From Bacilli bacterium (GTDB taxonomy: Bacteria > Bacillota_I > Bacilli_A > RF39 > UBA660), in contig JAFQIC010000042.1 in the NCBI GenBank assembly GCA_017397745.1, forward strand, positions 1-37,903: a stretch of DNA of 37,903 bases. The letters run 5' to 3'. This document shows positions 687 to 31,555 of the stretch, in pieces (the stretch's first letter is position 1; each line of letters opens with the position of its first letter). The position numbers and the translations under genes are program-made. The notes beneath the pieces are model-generated. The model did no database searches and was not told where the DNA came from. It saw nothing but the letters and a program-made list of their open reading frames with translations.

Positions 687-914
687 ATGAAAAAAGAAAA
701 TGAATTTTTAGCAACAGCTAAATTAACGTCAAAAGGACAAATTACTATTCCAAAAATTGTAAGAGAAACATTAAAACTTGATGAAGGAGACTCTGTATTC
801 TTTTATGTGGATAAAAACAATAATATAAAAATATCCAATACAAAAGATTGTAAAATTGAAACTGATAATAATAAAGAACAAATAGTAGTTAAGAGAGGTA
901 ATAAAAATGAGTAA
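687..914 (+). CDS. AbrB/SpoVT/MazE-type DNA-binding protein
   Basis: A 75-residue protein with an N-terminal swapped-hairpin AbrB domain: LTSKGQITIPKIVRETL (about residues 13-29) is the family signature, followed by LDEGDSVFFYV. Such proteins bind DNA as dimers and serve as transition-state regulators or antitoxins. The tail after residue 50 is short, charged and unlike full AbrB. AAGGAG precedes the start by nine bases. Its stop overlaps the hsdM start by 8 bases (shared ATGAGTAA), so it is translated with the methylase and lies first in the operon. No toxin gene is adjacent. The best inference is an autoregulator of the restriction operon; an antitoxin role is possible. Confidence 0.85.
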   Translation: MKKENEFLATAKLTSKGQITIPKIVRETLKLDEGDSVFFYVDKNNNIKISNTKDCKIETDNNKEQIVVKRGNKNE

Positions 915-2631
915 TATAGCAAGAATTGTGAATGAAAAAGCATCATTGATTTGGAGTATTGCAGATAAATTGGTTGGCGTATACAAACCGCATGAATATG
1001 GAGATGTTATTCTTCCACTAACGGTTTTAAAAAGATTTGATTCTGTTTTGGGAGATACAAAAGATAAAGTATTAGAAATGGCAAAAAAATATCCAGAAAC
1101 TTTTGCTAAGAGAGATTTTGTTTTGAAAGAAACAGCAGGCCAAAAGTTTTATAACACATCTAAATATGATTTTAAAAAGTTATTAGATGATCCGGATAAC
1201 ATTGAAGAGAATTTTTATAATTATATAAATGGATATTCTGATGAAGTTAAAGATATTATTAAAAATTTTGATTTAAACAAGCAGATAGAAAGAATGGCTG
1301 ATAGTGGAATTTTATATCAAGTTATAGATACTTATAATTCAGAAAAAGCAAATTTACATCCAAACTATGTTTCGAACATTGAAATGGGATATATTTTTGA
1401 AGAAATTATAAGAAGATTTAATGAATTATCAAATGAAGAAGCTGGACAACATTATACTCCAAGAGAAGTTATTGAATTAATGGTTAATTTAATATTTGAA
1501 GACGAAGAAGATTTAGCTGATTCTTCTAAAATTAAAACAGTATATGATGGAGCTTGCGGGACGGGTGGAATGTTAACTGCTAGCATGGAATATGCTAAAA
1601 AATTAAATTCATCATCAAGAATTCTATGTTATGGACAAGAATTAAATGCTCAAACATATGCTATTTGTAAAGCTGATATGTTAATTAAGGGAGAAGATTC
1701 TAATAATATAAGACATGGAAATACCTTATCAGGAGATTTATTTCCTGGTGAAAATTTTGATTATATTATAATGAATCCACCATTTGGAATTGAATGGAAA
1801 AATGAAAAAGCTGCAGTGCTGAAAGAAGCAGAAAAGGGTAGTGATGGAAGATTTCCGGCAGGGACACCAGCTATATCTGATAGTCAATTATTGTTTTTAC
1901 AAAATGCTGTATCCAAAATGAAACCAGAAGGTTCCAAAATTGCAATAGTACATAATGGTTCCGCATTGTTTAAAGGGGATGCTGGATCAGGTGAGTCTGA
2001 AATAAGACGCTATGTAATAGAAAATGATTTATTAGATTGTATTGTTCAATTACCTAATGATATGTTTTATAATACTCCAATTGCAACATATATTTGGATT
2101 TTATCTAATAAAAAACCTTCACATAGAATTGGAAAAGTCCAATTGATAGATGCTTCTTCATTTGGAAAAAGATTGAGAAAACCTTTAGGAAATAAAAGAA
2201 ACGAAATTTCTAATGATCAAATTAATAAAATAACTAAAATATATGGTGATTTTGTTGAAAATGAATATTCTAAGATATATGAATTAGAAAATTTTGGATA
2301 TAGAAAAGTTACAATACTAATTCCGGAACTAGATGTAAATGGTTTAGTAAAAAAGAATTCTAAAGGAATACCAATAATAAATAAAGATTTAACAGAAACA
2401 GAAGTGATTCCTCTTAGTCAATCAATAGAGGATTATTTGAATAAAGAAGTTGTTCCGTTTAATGAATATGCAATGGTAGATGATTCAAAAACTAAAATTG
2501 GTTATGAAATATTGTTTATGAAATATTTTTATAAATATGTTGAACCTAAAAACTCAAAAGATATTCTAAAAGAAATTTCTGATTTAGATAAGGAATTAGA
2601 TTTTATATTGAAGGAGATTTCATATGAGTAG
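907..2631 (+). CDS. hsdM: Type I restriction-modification, DNA methyltransferase subunit
   Basis: Adds a methyl group to adenine N6 within the site chosen by HsdS, and forms the M2S core of the restriction complex. The 574 residues show an HsdM N-terminal helical domain (about 1-150), the lead-in GQHYTPREV, the AdoMet site DGACGTGG at 214-221 (motif I) and the catalytic NPPF at 290-293 (motif IV). Length is typical of the family. It overlaps abrB by 8 bases and hsdS by 8 bases; both junctions use ATGAGTA, so translation of the three genes looks coupled. All key motifs are intact, so the enzyme is probably active. Confidence 0.97.
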   Translation: MSNIARIVNEKASLIWSIADKLVGVYKPHEYGDVILPLTVLKRFDSVLGDTKDKVLEMAKKYPETFAKRDFVLKETAGQKFYNTSKYDFKKLLDDPDNIEENFYNYINGYSDEVKDIIKNFDLNKQIERMADSGILYQVIDTYNSEKANLHPNYVSNIEMGYIFEEIIRRFNELSNEEAGQHYTPREVIELMVNLIFEDEEDLADSSKIKTVYDGACGTGGMLTASMEYAKKLNSSSRILCYGQELNAQTYAICKADMLIKGEDSNNIRHGNTLSGDLFPGENFDYIIMNPPFGIEWKNEKAAVLKEAEKGSDGRFPAGTPAISDSQLLFLQNAVSKMKPEGSKIAIVHNGSALFKGDAGSGESEIRRYVIENDLLDCIVQLPNDMFYNTPIATYIWILSNKKPSHRIGKVQLIDASSFGKRLRKPLGNKRNEISNDQINKITKIYGDFVENEYSKIYELENFGYRKVTILIPELDVNGLVKKNSKGIPIINKDLTETEVIPLSQSIEDYLNKEVVPFNEYAMVDDSKTKIGYEILFMKYFYKYVEPKNSKDILKEISDLDKELDFILKEISYE

Positions 2632-3922
2632 GACGATGAAATATACGGGTATTGAATGGTTGGGCGAGATACCAGAATCATGGGAAGTGAAAAAAGTTAG
2701 AAATGTATTCTTTAGAAGAAAAGAAATTAATCAAACCTCCGATCCGATCATTTTATCGTTAGCTAGAGATGGAGTTAAAGTTAGAGATATATCTAATAAT
2801 GAGGGGCAACTTGCTGAGAGTTATGATAATTATCATATTGTTTACAAAGGAGATTTGATGATAAATCCTATGGATTTAGTAAGTGGTGCTAATTGTAGCG
2901 TTTCTGAAAACGAAGGAGTTATTAGTCCAGCATATATAAATTTAGCAAAAAAAGTAGATTGTAATTCTAGATACTTTGATTATTATTTTAAAAATCAATA
3001 TTGGGTTAAGGCAATGTTTATACATGGAAAAGGAGTTTCTTTTGATAATAGATGGACAATAACCGCAGAAACACTTATGAATTATTATATTCCTTTTCCG
3101 GCAAAAGAAGAACAGGATAAAATAGCGACTTATTTAGATGAAAAAACAAAAAAAATTGATTATTTAATTGAAAAAAATAAAGAAATTATTAAATTATTAA
3201 ACGATTATTTTAAATCATTAACGACGGAATATACAACAGGAAAAAGATATATTGTTCAAAAAAAAGATTCAGAGATTGAATGGATTGGAGAGATACCTAA
3301 AACTTGGAACATTATTTCATTTAAAAATATTATGAAAGAACGCAATGAAAAGAATAATCCAGTAAAAAGTAAGACTCGATTATCTCTTTCAATAGATAAA
3401 GGTATAACTACATATTCTGAAAAAACAACTAATTTGGATAGATTTAAAGAGGAGTTTGAACAGTATAAGTTAGCGCATATTGGCGATTTAGTATTTAACA
3501 GCATGAACATGATTGTTGGAGCTGTTGGGTATTCCAATTATTATGGATGCGTTAGTCCGGTATACTATACCTATTATGATGAAGATGGCGAATATCATTA
3601 TTATTCAAGATTCTATGAGTATTTATTCAGGTCTAAAGGTATACGCAAAAAACTATATTCTATTGGAAGAGGGATTATTTCCTTTGATAAAGGTGATGAT
3701 CAAATTAATACCTGCAGATTAAAAATAAGTAGAGATGATTTGAGAGGATTTAAAGTACCGTTACCGCCATATAATGAAATTAAAACAATAGTAGATGATC
3801 TAGATGAAAGAAAAAAACAAATTAATAATGTTATAAAGATTAGAGAACAAATTATAGAAAAATTAGAAGAATATAAAAAGTCACTTATATATGAATGTGT
3901 GACAGGAAAAAGAGAGGTGTAA
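2624..3922 (+). CDS. hsdS: Type I restriction-modification, specificity subunit
   Basis: Determines the bipartite DNA target for methylation and cleavage. The 432 residues split into two matching halves. Each opens with EWxGEIPxxW (residues 11-20 and 219-228), runs through a variable target-recognition domain, and closes with a long charged helix ending in TTGKR (about 170-208) or VTGKR (about 400-430). These helices form the spacer that fixes the gap between half-sites. The start is preceded by AAGGAG seven bases away and overlaps hsdM by 8 bases. No second or partial hsdS and no recombinase is in the window, so phase switching is not shown, although the repeated half-boundaries would allow domain exchange. 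Confidence 0.96.
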   Translation: MSRTMKYTGIEWLGEIPESWEVKKVRNVFFRRKEINQTSDPIILSLARDGVKVRDISNNEGQLAESYDNYHIVYKGDLMINPMDLVSGANCSVSENEGVISPAYINLAKKVDCNSRYFDYYFKNQYWVKAMFIHGKGVSFDNRWTITAETLMNYYIPFPAKEEQDKIATYLDEKTKKIDYLIEKNKEIIKLLNDYFKSLTTEYTTGKRYIVQKKDSEIEWIGEIPKTWNIISFKNIMKERNEKNNPVKSKTRLSLSIDKGITTYSEKTTNLDRFKEEFEQYKLAHIGDLVFNSMNMIVGAVGYSNYYGCVSPVYYTYYDEDGEYHYYSRFYEYLFRSKGIRKKLYSIGRGIISFDKGDDQINTCRLKISRDDLRGFKVPLPPYNEIKTIVDDLDERKKQINNVIKIREQIIEKLEEYKKSLIYECVTGKREV

Positions 3923-3923
3923 T

Positions 3924-6908
3924 ATGGAAACTCAAGAAAAGAATTTTGAAGAATCAATTCAAAAATATTTAGTAACAAAAGGTGGATATCATATTAGTGA
4001 TGGATTAGGATATGATAGATTAAAAGGATATAATCCAAAAGTTTTAATTGATTTTATTGCATCTACTCAAAATAAAAAATGGATGAAATTAATGTCTATT
4101 CATGGAGAATATACTAAAGACTATTTCTTAAAAAAAGTTGAAGAACAAATTAAAGAACATGGATTACTTGCAACTTTAAGAGATAAAATTAAACTTGATG
4201 GAATGGAATTTAAATTAGTATTTTTTAAACCAGAAACATCGATGAATCCAGATTTAGAAGAATTATATAATGGCAATATCTTAGAGTGCGTAAGACAATT
4301 ACATTATTCTATGGATAATGAAAATAGTGTTGATATAACATTATTTATTAATGGATTTCCAATTGTAATTATGGAATTGAAGAATCAATATACAGGACAA
4401 GATATAAATAATTCAATGCATCAATTTAAATTTGATAGAGATCCAGAGGAACCAATCTTTAAATTTAATGAAAGAAGTTTAGTATATTTTGGTGTTGATT
4501 TGTTTGAATGTGTAATGAGCACTAAATTAGCAAAGGGAAGCACATACTTCTTACCTTTTAATCAAGGAACAAACGGTGCAGGTAATGTAGGTGGAGCAGG
4601 TAATCCAAACAACAAAGACGGATTTGGTACAGCATATTTATGGGAAAAAGTATTATGTAAAGATTCGTTACTTGAAATACTACAAAAATATATGCATTTA
4701 GATTATGATCCAACTAAATCATGGAGAACAGGTAAGATGATATTCCCTAGATATCATCAATTAGATGCAGTAACTAAATTGGTAAAAGATGCAAAAGAAA
4801 ATGGTAGTGGTAAAAATTATTTGATACAACATAGTGCAGGGTCTGGAAAATCAAATTCTATAGCTTGGCTTGCATATAGATTATCTTCATTACATGACGA
4901 TAGTGATAATAAAATATTTGATTCAGTAATTGTTGTTACTGATAGAAAAGTATTAGATAGTCAATTACAAAATACAATATATCAATTTGACCATGTTCCG
5001 GGAACTGTGGTTAAGATAGATAAGGGTAAAACATCAAAAGATTTATTACAAGCTATAAATGATGGTAAAAAAATAATAATTACAACATTACAAAAATTTC
5101 CAAGAATATATACTGAAATTAATAGTGTTGAAAAGAAGTTTGCTGTTATAGTTGATGAGGCTCATTCATCTCAAACAGGAACTAGCGCCTCTAAATTAAA
5201 AGAGGGATTAGGTAATACTGAAGAAATATTAGAGGAATATGCAAGAAATGAATTAGCGGAAGAAAATAGTAGAATTGAAGATGATGATCTCCTAATGAAT
5301 GAATTAGCATCGCATGGGGACCACTCTAATATGTCATTCTTTGCTTTTACTGCTACTCCAAAAGATAAAACGTTACAAATATTTGGGACAAAACAATTGG
5401 ATGGAAGTTACAGACCATATCATGTTTATTCGATGCAACAAGCTATTGAAGAAGGATTTATATTAGATGTACTAAAAAATTATATGACATATGATATGTA
5501 TTATAAGATTGTTAAAAGTGCAGCAGATGATCCTGAAGTTAAGACTTCGAAAGGAATGAAAGCAATTGCTCGATATGAATCATTACATCCTCATAATTTA
5601 AGCCAAAAAGCAGCAATAATGATCGAACATTTCTTAAATACAACAAGATACAAATTGGGTGGAAAAGCAAAAGCTATGGTTGTTACTTCGTCTAGATTAC
5701 ATGCTGTTAGATATTTAAAAGAATTTAGAAAGTACATTAAAGAACACAATATAGATGATATAGATGTTTTGGTAGCATTTTCTGGCGATTTAAATGATAA
5801 CGGCGAAATAGTAAGCGAAGAAAAATTAAATATTGATTACAAAGGAAATAATGAACATATAAAAGAAAGTCAATTGCCAAAAAGATTTAATGAATCATAT
5901 AATGTATTAATTGTTGCAGAAAAATATCAAACAGGCTTTGATGAACCATTGTTACATACTATGTTTGTTGATAAACCATTATATGGTGTAAAAGCTGTTC
6001 AAACTTTATCAAGATTAAATAGAACATGTCCAGGAAAGACAGATACTTTTGTACTTGATTTTGTAAATACTGCTGATGAGATTAGAGATTCTTTTCAACC
6101 ATATTATCAAGCCACAAATTTAACAGAAGGTGTTGATCCTAATAATGTGTATGCTATTTATAAAAGGGTAGAAGCTTATAGATTATTTGCCGAATCAGAG
6201 GCGCTTGAATTTGCAAAAGTATATTACAGTGGAAAAGAAGATATGTCTAAATTAAATTTCTATTTATACCCAGCTAGAAAGAAATATATGGATATGAAGA
6301 AAGAAGATCAAAGAGAATTTAAATCAATTCTTCAAGCATTTATTAGATGTTATGGATTTGTAGTTCAAGTAGCAAGAATGATGGATAAGGACATTCAAAG
6401 TAAATACATATTCTGTAAATATTTAAATAAAACATTACCAAAAGAACATGAAACAGTTATTGATTTAGATGATAAAATCGAACTTGAATATTATAGATTA
6501 GAAAAGAAATTTGAAGGTTCTATTGAATTAACTTCAGAAGAAGGAGAACTAAATCCACCTAAAGGTACTATTGGTAAAAAAGAAGAAGAGAAAGAACCGC
6601 TAAGTGTTCTTGTCGATAAAATTAATCAAAGATATAAAACAAACTTTACTAATATGGATAAAGTGATGGAACAAATAACACAAGATTTCTTAGATGATGA
6701 TGAAATGGTAAATCTTGCTAAAAACAATGAACCAGAAGCATTTAGAAAGATATATAATGAAGAGTTCCAAAGAAAAACATTTAAGAGATATCAACAAAAT
6801 ACTGATATGTTTGAAAAAATGATGTCTGAACCAGGATATATGGAAGACTTTATGACAAGCATGTTTAAATTTATTTATGATAAGTTAAAGAATAAAGGAG
6901 AAAAATAG
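3924..6908 (+). CDS. hsdR: Type I restriction enzyme, endonuclease/translocase subunit
   Basis: The motor and nuclease subunit that pulls unmodified DNA through the complex and cuts it. In order along 994 residues: a PD-(D/E)xK nuclease core with D137 and E151-L-K153; Walker A SAGSGKS at 304-310; DEAH box at 411-414; helicase motif III FTATP; motif VI QTLSRLNRT; and a C-terminal helical domain that binds the M2S core. Length matches the roughly 1000-residue family. It begins one base after the hsdS stop, inside the operon. All catalytic residues are present, so a working restriction enzyme is expected. Confidence 0.97.
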   Translation: METQEKNFEESIQKYLVTKGGYHISDGLGYDRLKGYNPKVLIDFIASTQNKKWMKLMSIHGEYTKDYFLKKVEEQIKEHGLLATLRDKIKLDGMEFKLVFFKPETSMNPDLEELYNGNILECVRQLHYSMDNENSVDITLFINGFPIVIMELKNQYTGQDINNSMHQFKFDRDPEEPIFKFNERSLVYFGVDLFECVMSTKLAKGSTYFLPFNQGTNGAGNVGGAGNPNNKDGFGTAYLWEKVLCKDSLLEILQKYMHLDYDPTKSWRTGKMIFPRYHQLDAVTKLVKDAKENGSGKNYLIQHSAGSGKSNSIAWLAYRLSSLHDDSDNKIFDSVIVVTDRKVLDSQLQNTIYQFDHVPGTVVKIDKGKTSKDLLQAINDGKKIIITTLQKFPRIYTEINSVEKKFAVIVDEAHSSQTGTSASKLKEGLGNTEEILEEYARNELAEENSRIEDDDLLMNELASHGDHSNMSFFAFTATPKDKTLQIFGTKQLDGSYRPYHVYSMQQAIEEGFILDVLKNYMTYDMYYKIVKSAADDPEVKTSKGMKAIARYESLHPHNLSQKAAIMIEHFLNTTRYKLGGKAKAMVVTSSRLHAVRYLKEFRKYIKEHNIDDIDVLVAFSGDLNDNGEIVSEEKLNIDYKGNNEHIKESQLPKRFNESYNVLIVAEKYQTGFDEPLLHTMFVDKPLYGVKAVQTLSRLNRTCPGKTDTFVLDFVNTADEIRDSFQPYYQATNLTEGVDPNNVYAIYKRVEAYRLFAESEALEFAKVYYSGKEDMSKLNFYLYPARKKYMDMKKEDQREFKSILQAFIRCYGFVVQVARMMDKDIQSKYIFCKYLNKTLPKEHETVIDLDDKIELEYYRLEKKFEGSIELTSEEGELNPPKGTIGKKEEEKEPLSVLVDKINQRYKTNFTNMDKVMEQITQDFLDDDEMVNLAKNNEPEAFRKIYNEEFQRKTFKRYQQNTDMFEKMMSEPGYMEDFMTSMFKFIYDKLKNKGEK

Positions 6909-8744
6909 ATGATTAGACACGTAGAACAAAAGTCGGTTTCACAAGTATTACCTGATGATAAAATTATTTATAAAATTCCTAAATATCAAAGAAAATATAC
7001 ATGGGGTCAAAATGAATGGGATTTGCTATTCAATGATGTTTTAGAAAATGATGAAGGATATTTTTTAGGATCAACTATTTGTGTTACTATACCAAGTAGT
7101 GCATATGGAGCTACTTATTTAGAAGTTATTGACGGACAACAAAGAATGACTTCGCTATCAATTTTATTATCTGTATTATATACTAAACTTTTGAAACATA
7201 AAGATGAATTAGATATAGACAGTATGACTGATTTAAATAATATAAAAAGACAATTAGCATATAAGCAAGATGATAAATATATTCCTAGACTGCAATTACA
7301 AATACAAGATAACAATCAAGCTGATTATAACTACTTATTATCAGAATCTGAAATAATAGAAAAAACAGAATTTCCACTTTATTGTGGCAATAGAAAAATA
7401 TATAAAGCAGCTAGATATTTTGATAAATTAATAACTAATTTTTTACAATCAGAAGATTCTGAAAATGTTTATAGAGGGTTAAAATCTGATAATGAAGTTA
7501 AAACTTTATTAAATTTAGTTAGAAGATTTAATAGTGCGATTTTAGTAGTTATAGAAGTAGATAATCATAAAGATGCATATATGTTATTTGAATCACTAAA
7601 TAATCGCGGAGTGCCTTTAACTGCTATAGATTTAATTAAAAATTTGCTTATATCAACATCTGAAAGAGATGGAAAATCAGATGAATGTTATGATAAATGG
7701 ACAAAAATTCAAAAGAATTTAGGTGAAGAATATTCTGTTCAAGAAAGATTTTTCAGACATTATTACAATGCATTTATAGACGAATTAAATAAACCATTTA
7801 TTACTCCAGAAAGTACTAAAAAATATCCATTGGCATATTTGGCAACAAAAACAACATTAATGGATATTTATGAAAGATTAATAAAAAAAGATTATATTAA
7901 ATTTATTGATGATATTGAATATGCATCAGATAATTATGCAATGATTATTAATAATTCTGATAAGAAACCAAGCTATGCCGAGGAACTTTTAAATCTTGAA
8001 AGAGTTCAAGGAGCTCCTGGATATTTGTTGCTTCTTTATTTAGAAAATAATAAAGAAACTTTAAAACTTACAGATAATAACATGAAAGATATTATAAAAT
8101 TATTAGTATCATTCTTTGTAAGAAGAAATATAACAGATATTCCGAACACAAGAAATTTAACTAAAATATTTATGGATATAATAGCGTCTATTAAAGAAAA
8201 TGATTGCAATTTAATTTATGATATTTGTAGAAACAAATTAGTTTCAGAATCAGCTCCTGATAGTCTATTTGAAGAAAAATTAAGGGGTCCACTATATGAC
8301 TTAAATGATACAGCAACAAGATTTATACTATGTCATATTGAAGCACAACACACAACAAAAGAAATATATACAGATTTGTGGTCTAGAGATAACAGTAATA
8401 AATATGTATGGACAATTGAACACATATTCCCAGAAGGACAAAAAATTCCAAAAGAATGGGTTGATATGATTGCTAACGGAAACGAAGATTTGGCATATGA
8501 ATATTTAAATAAATATGTGCATACACTAGGTAATTTAACTATCACAGGATATAATTCTAATTTGAGCAATTTTGATTTTGAAAAGAAAAAATATAGAAAG
8601 AATCAAGAAGGAAAAGACATCGGATATACAAATGGATTATATTTAAATAATGATGTAGTAGTTGAAGACAAATGGACAGTTGAAAGGATAAAAAATAGAA
8701 CAGATAAATTAGTATCAATAAGTTTGAGTTTATTTAAACTTTAG
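6909..8744 (+). CDS. GmrSD-like enzyme: DUF262 nucleotidase + DUF1524 HNH nuclease
   Basis: A 611-residue fusion. The N-terminal DUF262 half has IPKYQRKYTW (about 23-32) and IDGQQRMTSL with D75-G-Q-Q-R79, the ParB/sulfiredoxin-like NTP-binding motif. The C-terminal DUF1524 half has the HNH-like nuclease motif: E504-H505, then LGNLT at 540-544 and NSNLSNFDFEKKK. This is the layout of single-chain GmrSD-type proteins, which cut modified (for example glucosylated hydroxymethylcytosine) DNA. It starts directly after the hsdR stop with no gap, so it is the last gene of the type I operon before a hairpin terminator. Substrate is unknown. Partnering a type I system that attacks unmodified DNA with a nuclease for modified DNA makes biological sense; that is inference. 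Confidence 0.9.
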   Translation: MIRHVEQKSVSQVLPDDKIIYKIPKYQRKYTWGQNEWDLLFNDVLENDEGYFLGSTICVTIPSSAYGATYLEVIDGQQRMTSLSILLSVLYTKLLKHKDELDIDSMTDLNNIKRQLAYKQDDKYIPRLQLQIQDNNQADYNYLLSESEIIEKTEFPLYCGNRKIYKAARYFDKLITNFLQSEDSENVYRGLKSDNEVKTLLNLVRRFNSAILVVIEVDNHKDAYMLFESLNNRGVPLTAIDLIKNLLISTSERDGKSDECYDKWTKIQKNLGEEYSVQERFFRHYYNAFIDELNKPFITPESTKKYPLAYLATKTTLMDIYERLIKKDYIKFIDDIEYASDNYAMIINNSDKKPSYAEELLNLERVQGAPGYLLLLYLENNKETLKLTDNNMKDIIKLLVSFFVRRNITDIPNTRNLTKIFMDIIASIKENDCNLIYDICRNKLVSESAPDSLFEEKLRGPLYDLNDTATRFILCHIEAQHTTKEIYTDLWSRDNSNKYVWTIEHIFPEGQKIPKEWVDMIANGNEDLAYEYLNKYVHTLGNLTITGYNSNLSNFDFEKKKYRKNQEGKDIGYTNGLYLNNDVVVEDKWTVERIKNRTDKLVSISLSLFKL

Positions 8745-14284: not shown

Positions 14285-15319
14285 ATGGTAAGTAAACTAA
14301 ATAAAGAAAAAGATAAAACATTAGAAGCAGTTTTAGCAGATATAGAAAAACAATTTGGTAAAGGTGCGATAATGAAATTAGGAGAAGGTGGTCTTAAAAA
14401 TATAGATGTAGTATCTTCAGGAAGTATTAGCCTTGATATCGCGCTTGGAGTTGGAGGATATCCTAAAGGGAGAATTATTGAGATATATGGTCCGGAATCA
14501 AGTGGTAAAACAACATTTGCGCTTCATGCGATTGCTGAAGTACAAAAAAATGGAGGTAAAGCAGCTTTTATTGATGCAGAGCATGCACTTGATCCTGTTT
14601 ATGCTAAGAACCTAGGTGTAAATATAAATGAACTTCTTTTGAGTCAGCCTGATACAGGAGAGCAAGCACTAGAAATATGTGAAGCGCTTGTTAGGAGTGA
14701 AGCTATGTCAATTATAGTAATTGATTCAGTAGCAGCGCTTGTCCCTCAGGCGGAAATTGAAGGTGAAATGGGAGATTCACATGTAGGATTGCAAGCAAGA
14801 CTAATGTCACAAGCATTAAGAAAATTAGGTGGAATAATAAGTAAAACAAATACAATTTGTATATTTATAAATCAACTCAGGGAAAAAGTTGGAGTTATGT
14901 TTGGAAATCCAGAAACTACTCCAGGTGGAAGAGCTTTAAAATTTTATGCATCTGTAAGATTAGACGTTAGAAGAGCAGAACAAATAAAATCAGGTGCTGA
15001 AATATTGGGAAATAAAACTGTTGTTAAAATTGTTAAAAATAAAGTTGCTCCTCCATTTAAAACTGCAGAAGTAGATATAATGTATGGAGAAGGAGTAAGT
15101 AGAGAAGGAGAAATTTGCGATATTGCTGCAAATCTTGGAATAATAGACAAAAGTGGTGCATGGTATGCATACAATGGCGAAAAAATAGGACAAGGGAAAG
15201 AAAATGTTAAATATTATTTGAAAGAAAATCCTTCACTTAGAGAAGAAATAGAAAATAAAATAAGACAACATTATAATTTTAAAGTGGATAACAAAGCTAT
15301 AGAGAATAAAGAAGAATAA
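14285..15319 (+). CDS. recA: Recombinase RecA
   Basis: Forms ATP-dependent filaments on single-stranded DNA, drives strand exchange and stimulates LexA self-cleavage. The 344 residues contain Walker A GPESSGKT at 69-76, the Walker B region [12 protein letters not shown], the L1/L2 loop area ([29 protein letters not shown]) and [13 protein letters not shown]. The length and the short C-terminal tail are normal. A LexA box and a strong promoter precede it, so SOS induction is expected. Confidence 0.99.
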
Positions 15320-25919: not shown

Positions 25920-25948
25920 TTGATAAATTGACTATATTAACTTATAAT
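25920..25948 (+). promoter_or_regulatory. Promoter of the secreted-protein gene
   Basis: TTGATA (25920-25925), 17 bases, TATAAT (25943-25948), 34 bases before the chosen start. It also argues against the upstream TTG (25928) as start. Confidence 0.7.
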
Positions 25949-25981
25949 ATTATAAGAAGAATAGTATTGAAAGGTAAAAAG

Positions 25982-27448
25982 ATGAATATATCAAAATATT
26001 TTAGTAAATTTGAAAAATTAGTAACTAGTAAATTTAATAAATTATCTTTAATAATAGTAAGTCTTTGTTTACTATTTAGTTTTTCATTTGCTATTTTTGT
26101 TGTAAATACAGATAATTATAAAGCAGCAGAAATGTATATTGGTAATCTTATTTATACCTTAAATATGAGAGTTATAGAGAATGGTAATGCCGTTAATGGT
26201 AATGTTGTTACTATTCCTGATGAATATACTTATACGGTTATGGTAGATATAGGTAGTTTAAATCCAGTTAGAACGAAATATAAACTACAATACGATACGG
26301 ATTGTACAGAATGTCAAATATTTATTAGTGATGTAACAGGATGGAACCCCTCAGGATCAATTAATGCATCTGGTACTGAGATAGATTCTAAAACAGTAAA
26401 AGTTATTATTATTAATACTAGTGGATCTTCTGCTGATGTGGAATTTAGAGTTACAGGTGGTTATAATTATCATGGAGTTGAAGGCGTAGCACTGGCTGAA
26501 GGATTTTCTAATGATTTTAAGTATAATTATGTTGATTCAAATTCAAATCGAACTATAACTGAATTAGTAAAAGCAGATACAGAATGTACTCCAACAGAAG
26601 ATATGCCTTGTTATTATGGCGGAGAAGAACAAAGAAATTACATTACTAATAACGAAAAAATTTATAGAATTTTAGGTGTATATTTAATTAATGGTGTTGA
26701 ATATGTAAAAATTATTCAGGAAGATAATGAATCAACTTCATCATATAGTGGATTAAATGAAGCACTACTTAATTATAATAATTCACTTCCAAATAATAAA
26801 TTAGAATATTTAACTGGAGAAGTTCAAATAATAAGTGCAAATGATTATGTACAAATAGGTGCTTATGATTCATATTTAAATGATGGGGAAGAAATGCTTA
26901 CAAATACAACTAGTGAATCAAATGTGTTTTATGTTACTACATCTGGTGAACTTAAATTAAAAGCACAAACAGAAGTTTCTAATATAAGACCTGTATTAAT
27001 ATTGAAAAGCGATGCTCGTATTAGAAATACAGGAGATGGTTCTTCAAATAATCCGTATATAATTCAAGATTCAACATCTGACATAATTGTAACTGAATTA
27101 AAAGTAGATGGTGCTCATGTTCAAGATACACCTAAATCAGGTTTATATAGTTTCAAACCAAATTGTACAAATGGAACTGCAACTTGGTCAGATAAACAAT
27201 ACTTATTAGAATTTTCAATAACTAATTCTACTATGTCTTGTGTAATAGAGTTTGAATCTAGAGATTTTAAATTAAATACTAAAGTAAATGGAGTGTCAGC
27301 ACCGATTCCAACCACAGGAAATTATAGTATGGATTATGACTGCAGTATGGGTAATATAACACTTGTATGGGATAATACTAATCATGAAATTTCAATAAGC
27401 AATATAGAATCACCAGTTTTATGTGAAGTGGAATTTACAAGTATTTAA
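25982..27448 (+). CDS. Large cell-surface protein with C-terminal repeats
   Basis: A 488-residue exported protein, anchored or cleaved at an N-terminal hydrophobic helix (about 22-42). A beta-rich region follows, then NNEKIYRILGVYLINGVEYVKI-type sequence, then VFYVTTSGELKL with NIRPVLILKSDARI and GDGSSNNPYII. The last 115 residues are two copies of a roughly 57-residue beta domain (about 370-428 and 430-488), each with a Cys pair and the pattern VxG...P..G.Y...C..G....W. The middle block resembles the product of the cassette at 29827-30072. ATG 25982 is chosen because a promoter overlaps the longer version. Function unknown; an adhesin or envelope role is likely. Confidence 0.75.
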   Translation: MNISKYFSKFEKLVTSKFNKLSLIIVSLCLLFSFSFAIFVVNTDNYKAAEMYIGNLIYTLNMRVIENGNAVNGNVVTIPDEYTYTVMVDIGSLNPVRTKYKLQYDTDCTECQIFISDVTGWNPSGSINASGTEIDSKTVKVIIINTSGSSADVEFRVTGGYNYHGVEGVALAEGFSNDFKYNYVDSNSNRTITELVKADTECTPTEDMPCYYGGEEQRNYITNNEKIYRILGVYLINGVEYVKIIQEDNESTSSYSGLNEALLNYNNSLPNNKLEYLTGEVQIISANDYVQIGAYDSYLNDGEEMLTNTTSESNVFYVTTSGELKLKAQTEVSNIRPVLILKSDARIRNTGDGSSNNPYIIQDSTSDIIVTELKVDGAHVQDTPKSGLYSFKPNCTNGTATWSDKQYLLEFSITNSTMSCVIEFESRDFKLNTKVNGVSAPIPTTGNYSMDYDCSMGNITLVWDNTNHEISISNIESPVLCEVEFTSI

Positions 27449-29429: not shown

Positions 29430-29624
29430 ATGATATATCCTTCTATTGATAAATTATTAAACTTAGTAGATTCCAAGTATAAACTAGTTCATGTTGCCGC
29501 TACAAGAGGAAGACAAATGCTCGAAAATAAACATTATCAATTAAATGAAAATGAATATGTTTCGACAAAAGAAATTGGAAAAAGTTTAGAAGAATTAGAA
29601 AAGGGTTATGTAAAATTAAAATAA
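29430..29624 (+). CDS. rpoZ: RNA polymerase omega subunit
   Basis: Small RNA polymerase subunit that helps assemble and stabilise beta-prime. The 64 residues begin with MIYPSIDKLLNLVDSKYKLVHVAATRGRQ, matching the omega core (PSID.LL...DSKY.LV..AA.R.RQ), and end EIGKSLEELEKGYVKL. Length is normal. In Bacillus it sits with gmk and coaBC; here it is alone between a nuclease gene and the prepilin-like ORF. Confidence 0.93.
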   Translation: MIYPSIDKLLNLVDSKYKLVHVAATRGRQMLENKHYQLNENEYVSTKEIGKSLEELEKGYVKLK

Positions 29625-29658: not shown

Positions 29659-29817
29659 ATGACAAGTAAAAAGGGATTTATATCAATATCAATTATTTAT
29701 TCATTTTTGATTCTTTTTTTGCTAATAATGTTTTCTATATTAATTTCTTATTCAAATAGAATAAGTATGGTATCTTCTATTGTTAATGAAGCAAAAGAAG
29801 TTTTAAATGGTTTATAA
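29659..29817 (+). CDS. Tiny prepilin-like membrane protein
   Basis: A 52-residue ORF. KKGF at residues 4-7 followed by 25 hydrophobic residues (ISISIIYSFLILFLLIMFSI) looks like a type IV prepilin leader and stem with the cleavage point between G6 and F7; the usual Glu at mature position 5 is absent, as in some minor pseudopilins. AAGGAG lies about ten bases before the ATG. The frame ends in TAA, then NTAA and TAA, and the same frame opens again at 29827 into the variable cassette. It may be the stub of a longer pilin whose middle was lost. No prepilin peptidase or assembly gene is in the window. Confidence 0.6.
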   Translation: MTSKKGFISISIIYSFLILFLLIMFSILISYSNRISMVSSIVNEAKEVLNGL

Positions 29818-29826
29818 AATTAATAA

Positions 29827-30072
29827 ACAAGTATATCTTATTTTTTATCAAGTTATTATTTATACACAAACGAATACTATTGGACAATGTCGCCGTATAG
29901 CTTCGGTAGCTCGACTGCGGGTGTGTTCTATGTCTATTCTGCGGGCTACTTGTACAACAGCTATGTGTACAACGCACGCGCGGTCGTGCCTGTAGTTTCC
30001 TTAAAAGCTGAAGCCACAGTAAAAAGTGGAACAGGACTATATAATGATCCATACATTATCTTAACAGAATGA
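29827..30072 (+). pseudogene. Orphan C-terminal variable cassette (VR-like), no start codon
   Basis: An 81-codon frame in register with the prepilin-like ORF but separated from it by three stops. It reads YYWTMSPYSFGSSTAG, then VFYVYSAGYLYNSYVYNARAVVPVVSLK and finishes NDPYIILTE. Bases 29881-30000 are about 53% G+C (64 of 120), against roughly a quarter in neighbouring genes. In codons from 29896 to 29973, 17 of 26 are NNC or NNT encoding Tyr, Ser, Gly, Thr or Asn, alternating with fixed Phe, Val, Ala and Leu. This is the pattern left when AAY codons are randomised in a diversity-generating retroelement target. The only internal ATG (29887) would cut the domain. A terminator follows. Confidence 0.55.
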
Positions 30073-30148: not shown

Positions 30149-31555
30149 GTGAAACTACCTAATATGCTTGAAGCTAAGAAAAGGACAACTGCTATACCAA
30201 AGTTTTTTGATTATGAGGATAATAAAAGTAAATTTGGACTTGGTAAAAAATATTTTATAAGAACATATGGTTGTCAAATGAATGAACATGATTCTGAAAA
30301 TATAAAAGGACTTTTAGAAAGTGCTGGTTTTAGTGAGTCAGAAGATTTAAATAGTAGTGATGTTGTGATAATGAATACATGTGCAATTAGAGAAAATGCT
30401 CATAATAAAGTTTTTGGATTTTTAGGACAAATGAAAAAACTTAAAGAAGTTAATCCTAACATAATTGTATGCATATGTGGATGCATGGCACAAGAAAAAT
30501 CTGTAGTAGATGAAATAATGAAAAAATATAGATGGGTTGATTTAGTATTTGGAACACATAATTTAAATGAAATGCTTTCTTATTTAGAAAAGAATATAAT
30601 AAATAAAGAAAAAATAATAGAAGTAGAAAGTATAGAAGGAAATGTTTGTGAAGGTCTTCCAGTAAAAAGAGACAGTAAAATTACTGCTTGGGTAAATATA
30701 ATTCTTGGTTGTGATAAATTTTGTACATATTGTATTGTACCTTATACTAGAGGTAAGCAAAGAAGTAGAAAAAAAGAAGATATTATCAATGAAATTATTG
30801 AATTAAAAGAAAGTGGATATAAGGAAGTAACACTTTTAGGACAAAATGTTAATGCTTATGGAAAAGATTTATATGATAACTATGACTTATCCGATCTTTT
30901 AAATGATGTCAGTAACATAGGTATAGAAAGAATAAGATTTGTTACTAGTCATCCTTGGGATTTTACTGATAGAATGATTGAAATAATAAAAACAAAAGAA
31001 AATGTAATGCCTTATGTACATCTTCCAATTCAGTCTGGAAGTAATAGGATTTTAAAATTAATGGGAAGAAGATATACTAAGGAAGAATATTTAAAATTAT
31101 TTGATAAATTATCAGATATTGAAAATATTTCTATTACTACAGATATAATAGTGGGATTTCCTGGTGAAACAGAAGAAGATTTTAATGAAACTATAGATGT
31201 TGTAAACAAATGTAAGTTTGATGGCGCATATACATTTATATTTTCTCCTAGAGAAAATACACCAGCTGCATTAATGGAAGACAATATAAGCGAAGAAGAA
31301 AAAAATAATAGGCTTCAAAGACTTAATAAAATTGTTAATAAGTATAGTAATGAAAATAATAAAAAATATATGGGTAAAATCGTTAAATGTTTAATCTTAG
31401 GTGAAAGTGAAAAAGATCCATGTAAAATAATGGGTTATACTGAAAATATGAAACTAGTTAATATTGAAGGGGATAAATCATTAATTGGTAAAATTGTAAA
31501 TGTAAAAATAACAGATGCCAAAAGTTTTAGTTTAGATGGAAAAATTGAAGAATAA
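30149..31555 (+). CDS. miaB: tRNA 2-methylthio-N6-isopentenyladenosine synthase
   Basis: Radical-SAM enzyme that adds a methylthio group to i6A37 of tRNAs reading UNN codons. In 468 residues: the N-terminal MTTase domain with cluster ligands C42, C78 and C112; the radical SAM motif C188-x3-C192-x2-C195 (GCDKFCTYCIVPYTRG); and a C-terminal TRAM domain (about 400-468). The start is GTG with GAAGGTG close upstream. In Bacillus miaB stands next to cotE; here a transporter gene lies between them. Confidence 0.96.
   Translation: MKLPNMLEAKKRTTAIPKFFDYEDNKSKFGLGKKYFIRTYGCQMNEHDSENIKGLLESAGFSESEDLNSSDVVIMNTCAIRENAHNKVFGFLGQMKKLKEVNPNIIVCICGCMAQEKSVVDEIMKKYRWVDLVFGTHNLNEMLSYLEKNIINKEKIIEVESIEGNVCEGLPVKRDSKITAWVNIILGCDKFCTYCIVPYTRGKQRSRKKEDIINEIIELKESGYKEVTLLGQNVNAYGKDLYDNYDLSDLLNDVSNIGIERIRFVTSHPWDFTDRMIEIIKTKENVMPYVHLPIQSGSNRILKLMGRRYTKEEYLKLFDKLSDIENISITTDIIVGFPGETEEDFNETIDVVNKCKFDGAYTFIFSPRENTPAALMEDNISEEEKNNRLQRLNKIVNKYSNENNKKYMGKIVKCLILGESEKDPCKIMGYTENMKLVNIEGDKSLIGKIVNVKITDAKSFSLDGKIEE

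Follow-up and report, generated by a model that had tools for sequence, protein, structure and literature searches.

A probable variable region of a diversity-generating retroelement in a presumably truncated target gene of a Bacilli genome

The window analysed here, a stretch of 37,903 nucleotides (contig JAFQIC010000042.1 of the Bacilli bacterium assembly GCA_017397745.1), has an overall G+C content of 25.8% and carries at 29881-30000 a patch in which 64 of the 120 bases are G or C. The patch is the most G+C-rich 120-mer of the window, the runner-up elsewhere reaching 53/120 at 14633. The reading frame that spans it runs without a stop between 29827 and 30069 and closes with a TGA at 30070-30072 (translation ...SSYYLYTNEYYWTMSPYSFGSSTAGVFYVYSAGYLYNSYVYNARAVVPVVSLKAEATVKSGTGLYNDPYIILTE, then the stop). 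The first in-frame ATG (29887) falls within the conserved WTMSP motif, and no in-frame start precedes it ahead of the variable region (VR). The features of the locus are listed in Table 1; the right neighbour is presumably of the miaB type, a name that we base on its sequence motifs. Elsewhere in the window, a run of ORFs at 907-8744 resembles, as named from sequence, the HsdM, HsdS and HsdR components of a type I restriction-modification system, with a DUF262-like protein encoded behind them.

Table 1. Features at and around the G+C-rich patch, in window coordinates
Feature	Coordinates	Strand	Basis
Distant relative of the target proteins (NIRPVLILKSDARIRNTGDGSSNNPYII), without a DGR-type VR	25928..27448	+	weak match C32:26909-27064, E 8.5e-4
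rpoZ-like small ORF (RNA polymerase omega, candidate), left neighbour	29430..29624	+	named from sequence
Prepilin-like ORF of 52 aa, probably what remains of the N-terminus of the target gene	29659..29817	+	same frame as fragment
Orphan 3' fragment of a DGR target gene	29848..30072	+	homology to sister genes
Variable region (VR), TCGCCG...TTTCCTTA	29890..30003	+	homology to TR/VR pairs of L136, L120, L137, L138
Hypervariable part	29899..29977	+	differences from the C51 gene concentrated in A columns of a relative's TR
Constant 3' block GCGCGGTCGTGCCTGTAGTTTCCTTA, located where the initiation-of-homing (IMH) site would be	29978..30003	+	identical to C51 gene; homologous to 3' end of L136 TR/VR identity
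miaB-type methylthiotransferase (candidate), right neighbour	30149..31555	+	sequence motifs

Between 29896 and 29973, 17 of the 26 codons are NNY triplets encoding Tyr, Ser, Gly, Thr or Asn. The original prediction had taken this composition as the codon signature of a VR written by a diversity-generating retroelement (DGR). Its counts of 64/120 and 17/26 are both reproduced, and the signature is supported by sister copies in the same genome and by the real templates (TRs) of related genomes. However, two of the codons counted as variable, 15 (TCT) and 17 (GGC), belong to the scaffold, because Ser and Gly are constant there in most sister copies. The segment GCACGCGCGGTCGTGCC (29974-29990) had likewise been described as fixed; it is constant from 29978 onward, but its first bases are not, codons 27-28 differing among copies. 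An inverted repeat, GCACG...CGTGC, in this block was dropped from further consideration, as the C51 sister copy lacks it. The absence of a reverse transcriptase (RT) from the window was confirmed in its list of ORFs.

The genome to which the window belongs is a draft of 953 kb in 89 contigs, 88% complete. Searches of this genome returned 28 matches at the DNA level and 26 at the protein level, which fall at about 25 places. Most of these encode the C-terminal ends of surface proteins that are DUF6273-like (C-type-lectin-like), reach up to 555 aa and have in common a body of the kind WYRDNI...LIADTPYCNDMSE...LLTADEVAYAGG. At least 12 copies of the family possess a G+C-rich VR of the DGR type, in which fixed TTC, TCG, GCG, GTG TTC, GTG, CTG, GTG and GCG GTG CCT codons are separated by NNT/NNC positions. 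The homology to sister genes sets in abruptly at 29848, the matches starting at about query position 29, and ends near the stop; from 29848, 51 bases are those of the C51 gene, the closest sister, and the sequence upstream is unrelated. In the DNA search of the genome, no second copy with the same VR as the window fragment was found. At L064 (~400-620), a DGR-type VR has its reading frame shifted, either by a frameshift or by an assembly error. The distant relative of the target proteins within the window (Table 1) has a product without any match in Pfam.

Because no TR was found in the organism's own genome, TRs of related genomes were taken as the yardstick for adenine-specific variation. 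Five TR/VR pairs, each near a DGR-type RT, were available from four genomes within the family, every one assigned to a different genus (L138 and L141 come from one genome). Over 80 nt, the mismatches of these pairs at A and non-A positions amount to 19/0 (L120), 14/0 (L136), 11/0 (L137), 21/1 (L138) and 17/1 (L141). The window VR aligns without gaps to the L120 TR. Across the 12 G+C-rich VRs of the window's genome, the mean entropy is 1.42 bits in the A columns of this TR and 0.45 bits in the other columns (p = 1.2e-10). Compared with the C51 gene, the window copy shows 0/48 differences 5' of the VR, differences in 24/37 A columns and 8/43 other columns within the VR, and 9/82 differences in the 3' flank. 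A direct comparison of the window copy with the L120 TR gives mismatches in 23/37 A columns and 12/44 others (p = 0.003). Some of the non-A differences between copies are linked (GTC..TCT..GGC versus GTG..TCG..GGG), so that at least two versions of the TR are needed; the two linked sets may well correspond to two such template versions.

With regard to the machinery, a search of the 88%-complete assembly with a reconstructed template returned VRs only, and neither a DGR RT query nor a bAvd family search gave a match there. The genus consists of this one genome and offers no congener as a source of the TR. The sole RT found in the assembly (C25; gene at L056:3-926, truncated by the contig end and with a G+C-richer stretch just 5' of its start) was considered as the DGR enzyme and rejected: its best match (E 7.6e-116) lies in the DRT group, namely UG26, and it carries AGIPISAFLSN in place of GxxxSQ. 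The RTs of the relatives possess GLPIGNMTSQ-like and YMDD-type motifs and lie beside TR/VR pairs. Matches to bAvd occurred in 23 of the 97 genomes searched, every one of them within the family (23/58 family genomes), and exceeded the Pfam cut-off in 12 of these 23. In G098, RT, bAvd, TR and target are found together; an ORF that looks transposase-like from its sequence (L222:4971-6308) lies between the target gene and the TR, bAvd and RT of this complete DGR.

The original prediction had proposed to look in the genome for a near-identical segment next to a DGR RT. About 25 homologous copies are there, whereas the template copy and a DGR RT are missing from the assembly. Their absence, which the original prediction had named as the first half of what would refute it, carries little weight in a draft that is 88% complete and broken at the VR repeats. 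Of the 25 VR copies, 21 are situated no more than 1.5 kb from a contig end (expected 28%, p = 9e-9), and the DGR core may for this reason have been lost in assembly. We infer that a DGR core exists in this lineage, or did so until recently, and that it dropped out of the assembly.

For the fold of the target, a 300-residue AlphaFold model of the C51 sister protein reached a pLDDT of 91.7 (an earlier model from close paralogs alone, with a pLDDT of 39.5, was discarded). Phage DUF6273 proteins are among the best viral structural matches of the model, and C-type lectins appear as weak matches in the PDB (E > 0.8); a sequence-profile search of the PDB gave nothing significant. The DUF6273 profile (PF19789) scores 14 bits for the window fragment and 21.8 bits for a relative, neither of which reaches the cut-off of 23.5. 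DUF6273 has been described as a DGR target domain with a C-terminal VR in Faecalibacterium phages (PMC11792537) and as similar to the C-type lectin fold (PMC10743442). The predicted structure places the VR of the sister within a C-type-lectin-fold target protein. A C-terminal VR in a DUF6273/C-type-lectin domain is the likeness to the Faecalibacterium-phage targets and to tentaclins (PMC11792537, PMC10743442); those are phage genes, whereas the ones described here belong to a Bacilli genome and have a sequence score below the Pfam cut-off.

The prepilin-like stub ends 30 bp upstream of the fragment and is followed by in-frame TAA stops and then by 30 bp of unrelated sequence, the origin of which is not recognisable. 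Homologs of the stub in relatives are mostly the N-termini of longer proteins, and the best of them (G020, 689 aa) continues into the YYRG..NNYV..WRIVR domain that is found in the targets. Since the stub is in frame with the fragment, for which the chance of coincidence is 1/3, and its best homolog is joined to the target domain, we favour as the origin of the truncation a deletion within a prepilin-type target gene. The designation of the locus as an orphan therefore stands, but 'cassette' fits it less well than the remnant of a truncated target gene: judged from its sequence, the window copy is most likely a 5'-truncated target gene, and it is probably silent or not translated.

In relatives, the VR is followed on its 3' side by a hairpin with a stem of 11-15 bp and a 4-nt loop (ACCC, CTCC or CTCT). 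About seven target genes of the window's genome also have such a hairpin behind them, intact or degraded; L058, L059, L061, L063, L065, L069 and L074 have in common a 3' inverted repeat, GCTTTTCGAAAACCGTTTTCGAAAAGC, or degraded forms of it, at the position of the relatives' hairpin. No DGR target hairpin was found near the window copy. Since a downstream hairpin is required for efficient homing in BPP-1 (PMC3240598), its absence would make the window copy a poor or dead target, probably. The suggestion that the patch ends in the manner of a homing site is hence correct as to position, the TR/VR identity of relatives stopping at the homologous point ...TTTCCTTA, but the hairpin expected downstream is missing.

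Taken together, these findings make it very likely that the patch is a DGR VR and likely that it persists as a truncated, probably untranslated remnant. The reading that we favour, with a probability of roughly 85%, is that 29890-30003 is a DGR-written VR left in a broken target gene, the body of which has been lost and which is probably untranslated. Counting against this reading are the lack of TR, DGR RT and bAvd in the assembly, the linked non-A differences, and the 30 bp of unrecognisable origin between stub and fragment, whose common frame could be a coincidence. According to this model, an error-prone RT would copy the TR RNA, inserting any base opposite a template A, and the resulting cDNA would replace the VR of C-type-lectin-like surface proteins. 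Some 25 target genes or paralogs make up the family in this genome. The window copy lacks the gene body, most likely as the result of an internal deletion, and retains the prepilin-like stub and the C-terminal VR fragment.

A different role for the fragment is suggested by related genomes, in which VR copies lie outside genes; the fragment might be a silent donor cassette that serves as a store of VR sequence and is exchanged with expressed targets by gene conversion. In G040, which belongs to another genus of the same family, an anchor search gave 43 VR-like matches, two of them apparently double anchors of one copy. The loci in question (L142, L143, L144, L148, L151-L188, L225 and L234-L241) comprise about 41 gene-less VR cassettes, dispersed or in tandem, with a sharp 5' border, TTTGCCACCGG, that often lies behind a T-rich stretch. 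One VR belongs to a full-length gene (698 aa), and the remaining VRs with a listed frame have open frames of just 52-107 aa. Five TR-like units with a noncoding flank in common occur on C20 (two), C14, C10 and C35, and one of them lies just behind the full-length gene. Mismatches between the cassettes and the TRs affect 50% of the A cells and 8% of the rest, a comparison that is somewhat flattering in that the closest TR was chosen. Tandem cassettes are identical in 148 of 150 upstream bases, and their VRs show 21-23 differences, of which 13 fall at A. Over 218 bp, the expressed VR of the full-length gene is identical to that of a dispersed cassette. A search of G040 found no DGR RT; its congener G098 has the complete set. 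Another congener, G097, has gene-less cassettes as well, two of which stand beside a full-length target gene. Short orphan-like frames in G012, G028, G036 and G008 were not counted as gene-less cassettes, because those that were fetched lie mostly at contig ends.

The anatomy of G040 would fit silent-cassette antigenic variation of the vls or pilS type, with many silent donors and one expression site, but it is unlike that of the window genome. There, the window fragment is the only clear orphan, and no second copy of its VR was found; moreover, its 5' border does not resemble that of the G040 cassettes, and the prepilin-like stub stands just upstream in the same frame. As an account of the window fragment itself, the donor cassette is consequently rather unlikely.

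Other explanations fare considerably worse. If the copies were ordinary surface-protein paralogs that owed their diversity to point mutation, recombination and selection, with no DGR involved, an assembly devoid of TR and DGR RT would be expected, and the paralogs L067_2651, L069 and L076 do lack a significant A-column bias, some paralogs being A+T-rich or divergent. Nevertheless, the differences cluster where a real TR has A and spare the 5' flank, and in relatives with complete DGRs this domain serves as the DGR target, which renders this view highly improbable. The stop-free frame could also be thought to encode a mini-protein of 61-81 aa that consists of the VR only. Its first listed start, however, is the ATG inside WTMSP, where a ribosome-binding site is not evident, the product would have neither a signal peptide nor a lectin body, and in-frame stops separate the fragment from the stub, so that translation of this kind has an equally slim chance of being correct. 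A recent import of phage or plasmid DNA, as 53% G+C within a 26% window might suggest, is scarcely credible, since the high G+C stems from the make-up of the VR itself (randomised codons set between fixed ones such as TCG, GCG, GTG and CTG) and is seen again in a dozen sister genes of this genome, and since protein searches and two DNA pattern searches of viral contigs yielded no matches.

The remnant of a DGR target gene that we favour resembles known systems in several respects. As in the BPP-1 DGR (PMC3240598), a C-type-lectin-like target gene carries the VR at its 3' end, the changes fall on template adenines, and a constant 3' block occupies the homing position; the likeness extends to TR, RT, bAvd and a downstream hairpin with a 4-nt loop in the relatives only. 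The window VR differs from BPP-1 in belonging to a truncated gene without a hairpin, in an assembly without the core, and the loops of the family (ACCC, CTCC or CTCT) differ from the GRNA of the BPP-1 type. Treponema denticola DGRs include truncated targets of 58-136 aa, and targets are kept in isolates in which no TR or RT was found (PMC4891356). Several remote targets per genome and the occurrence of truncated ones are features common to both organisms; T. denticola has 2-7 targets of the FGE-sulfatase type, whereas here about 25 family copies of a DUF6273-like type are present in a 0.95-Mb genome. In the available part of the MetaCSST survey of DGRs (PMC6642488), genomes with many VRs and several TRs provide a further parallel, and gene-less dispersed VRs of the G040 type are not described in that part.

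Our results indicate that a single 120-base patch of raw sequence can be enough to recognise a DGR relic, and that DGRs with many target paralogs are widespread in this family of small-genome Bacilli. The arrangement in G040 may be more than a new example of a known system. It is conceivable, if doubtful, that the DGR of the family is coupled to a dispersed library of gene-less VRs from which gene conversion supplies an expressed surface protein, the window fragment being a small instance and G040 the developed form. The relatives thereby raise the question of whether variants made by a DGR are archived outside genes and then re-used.
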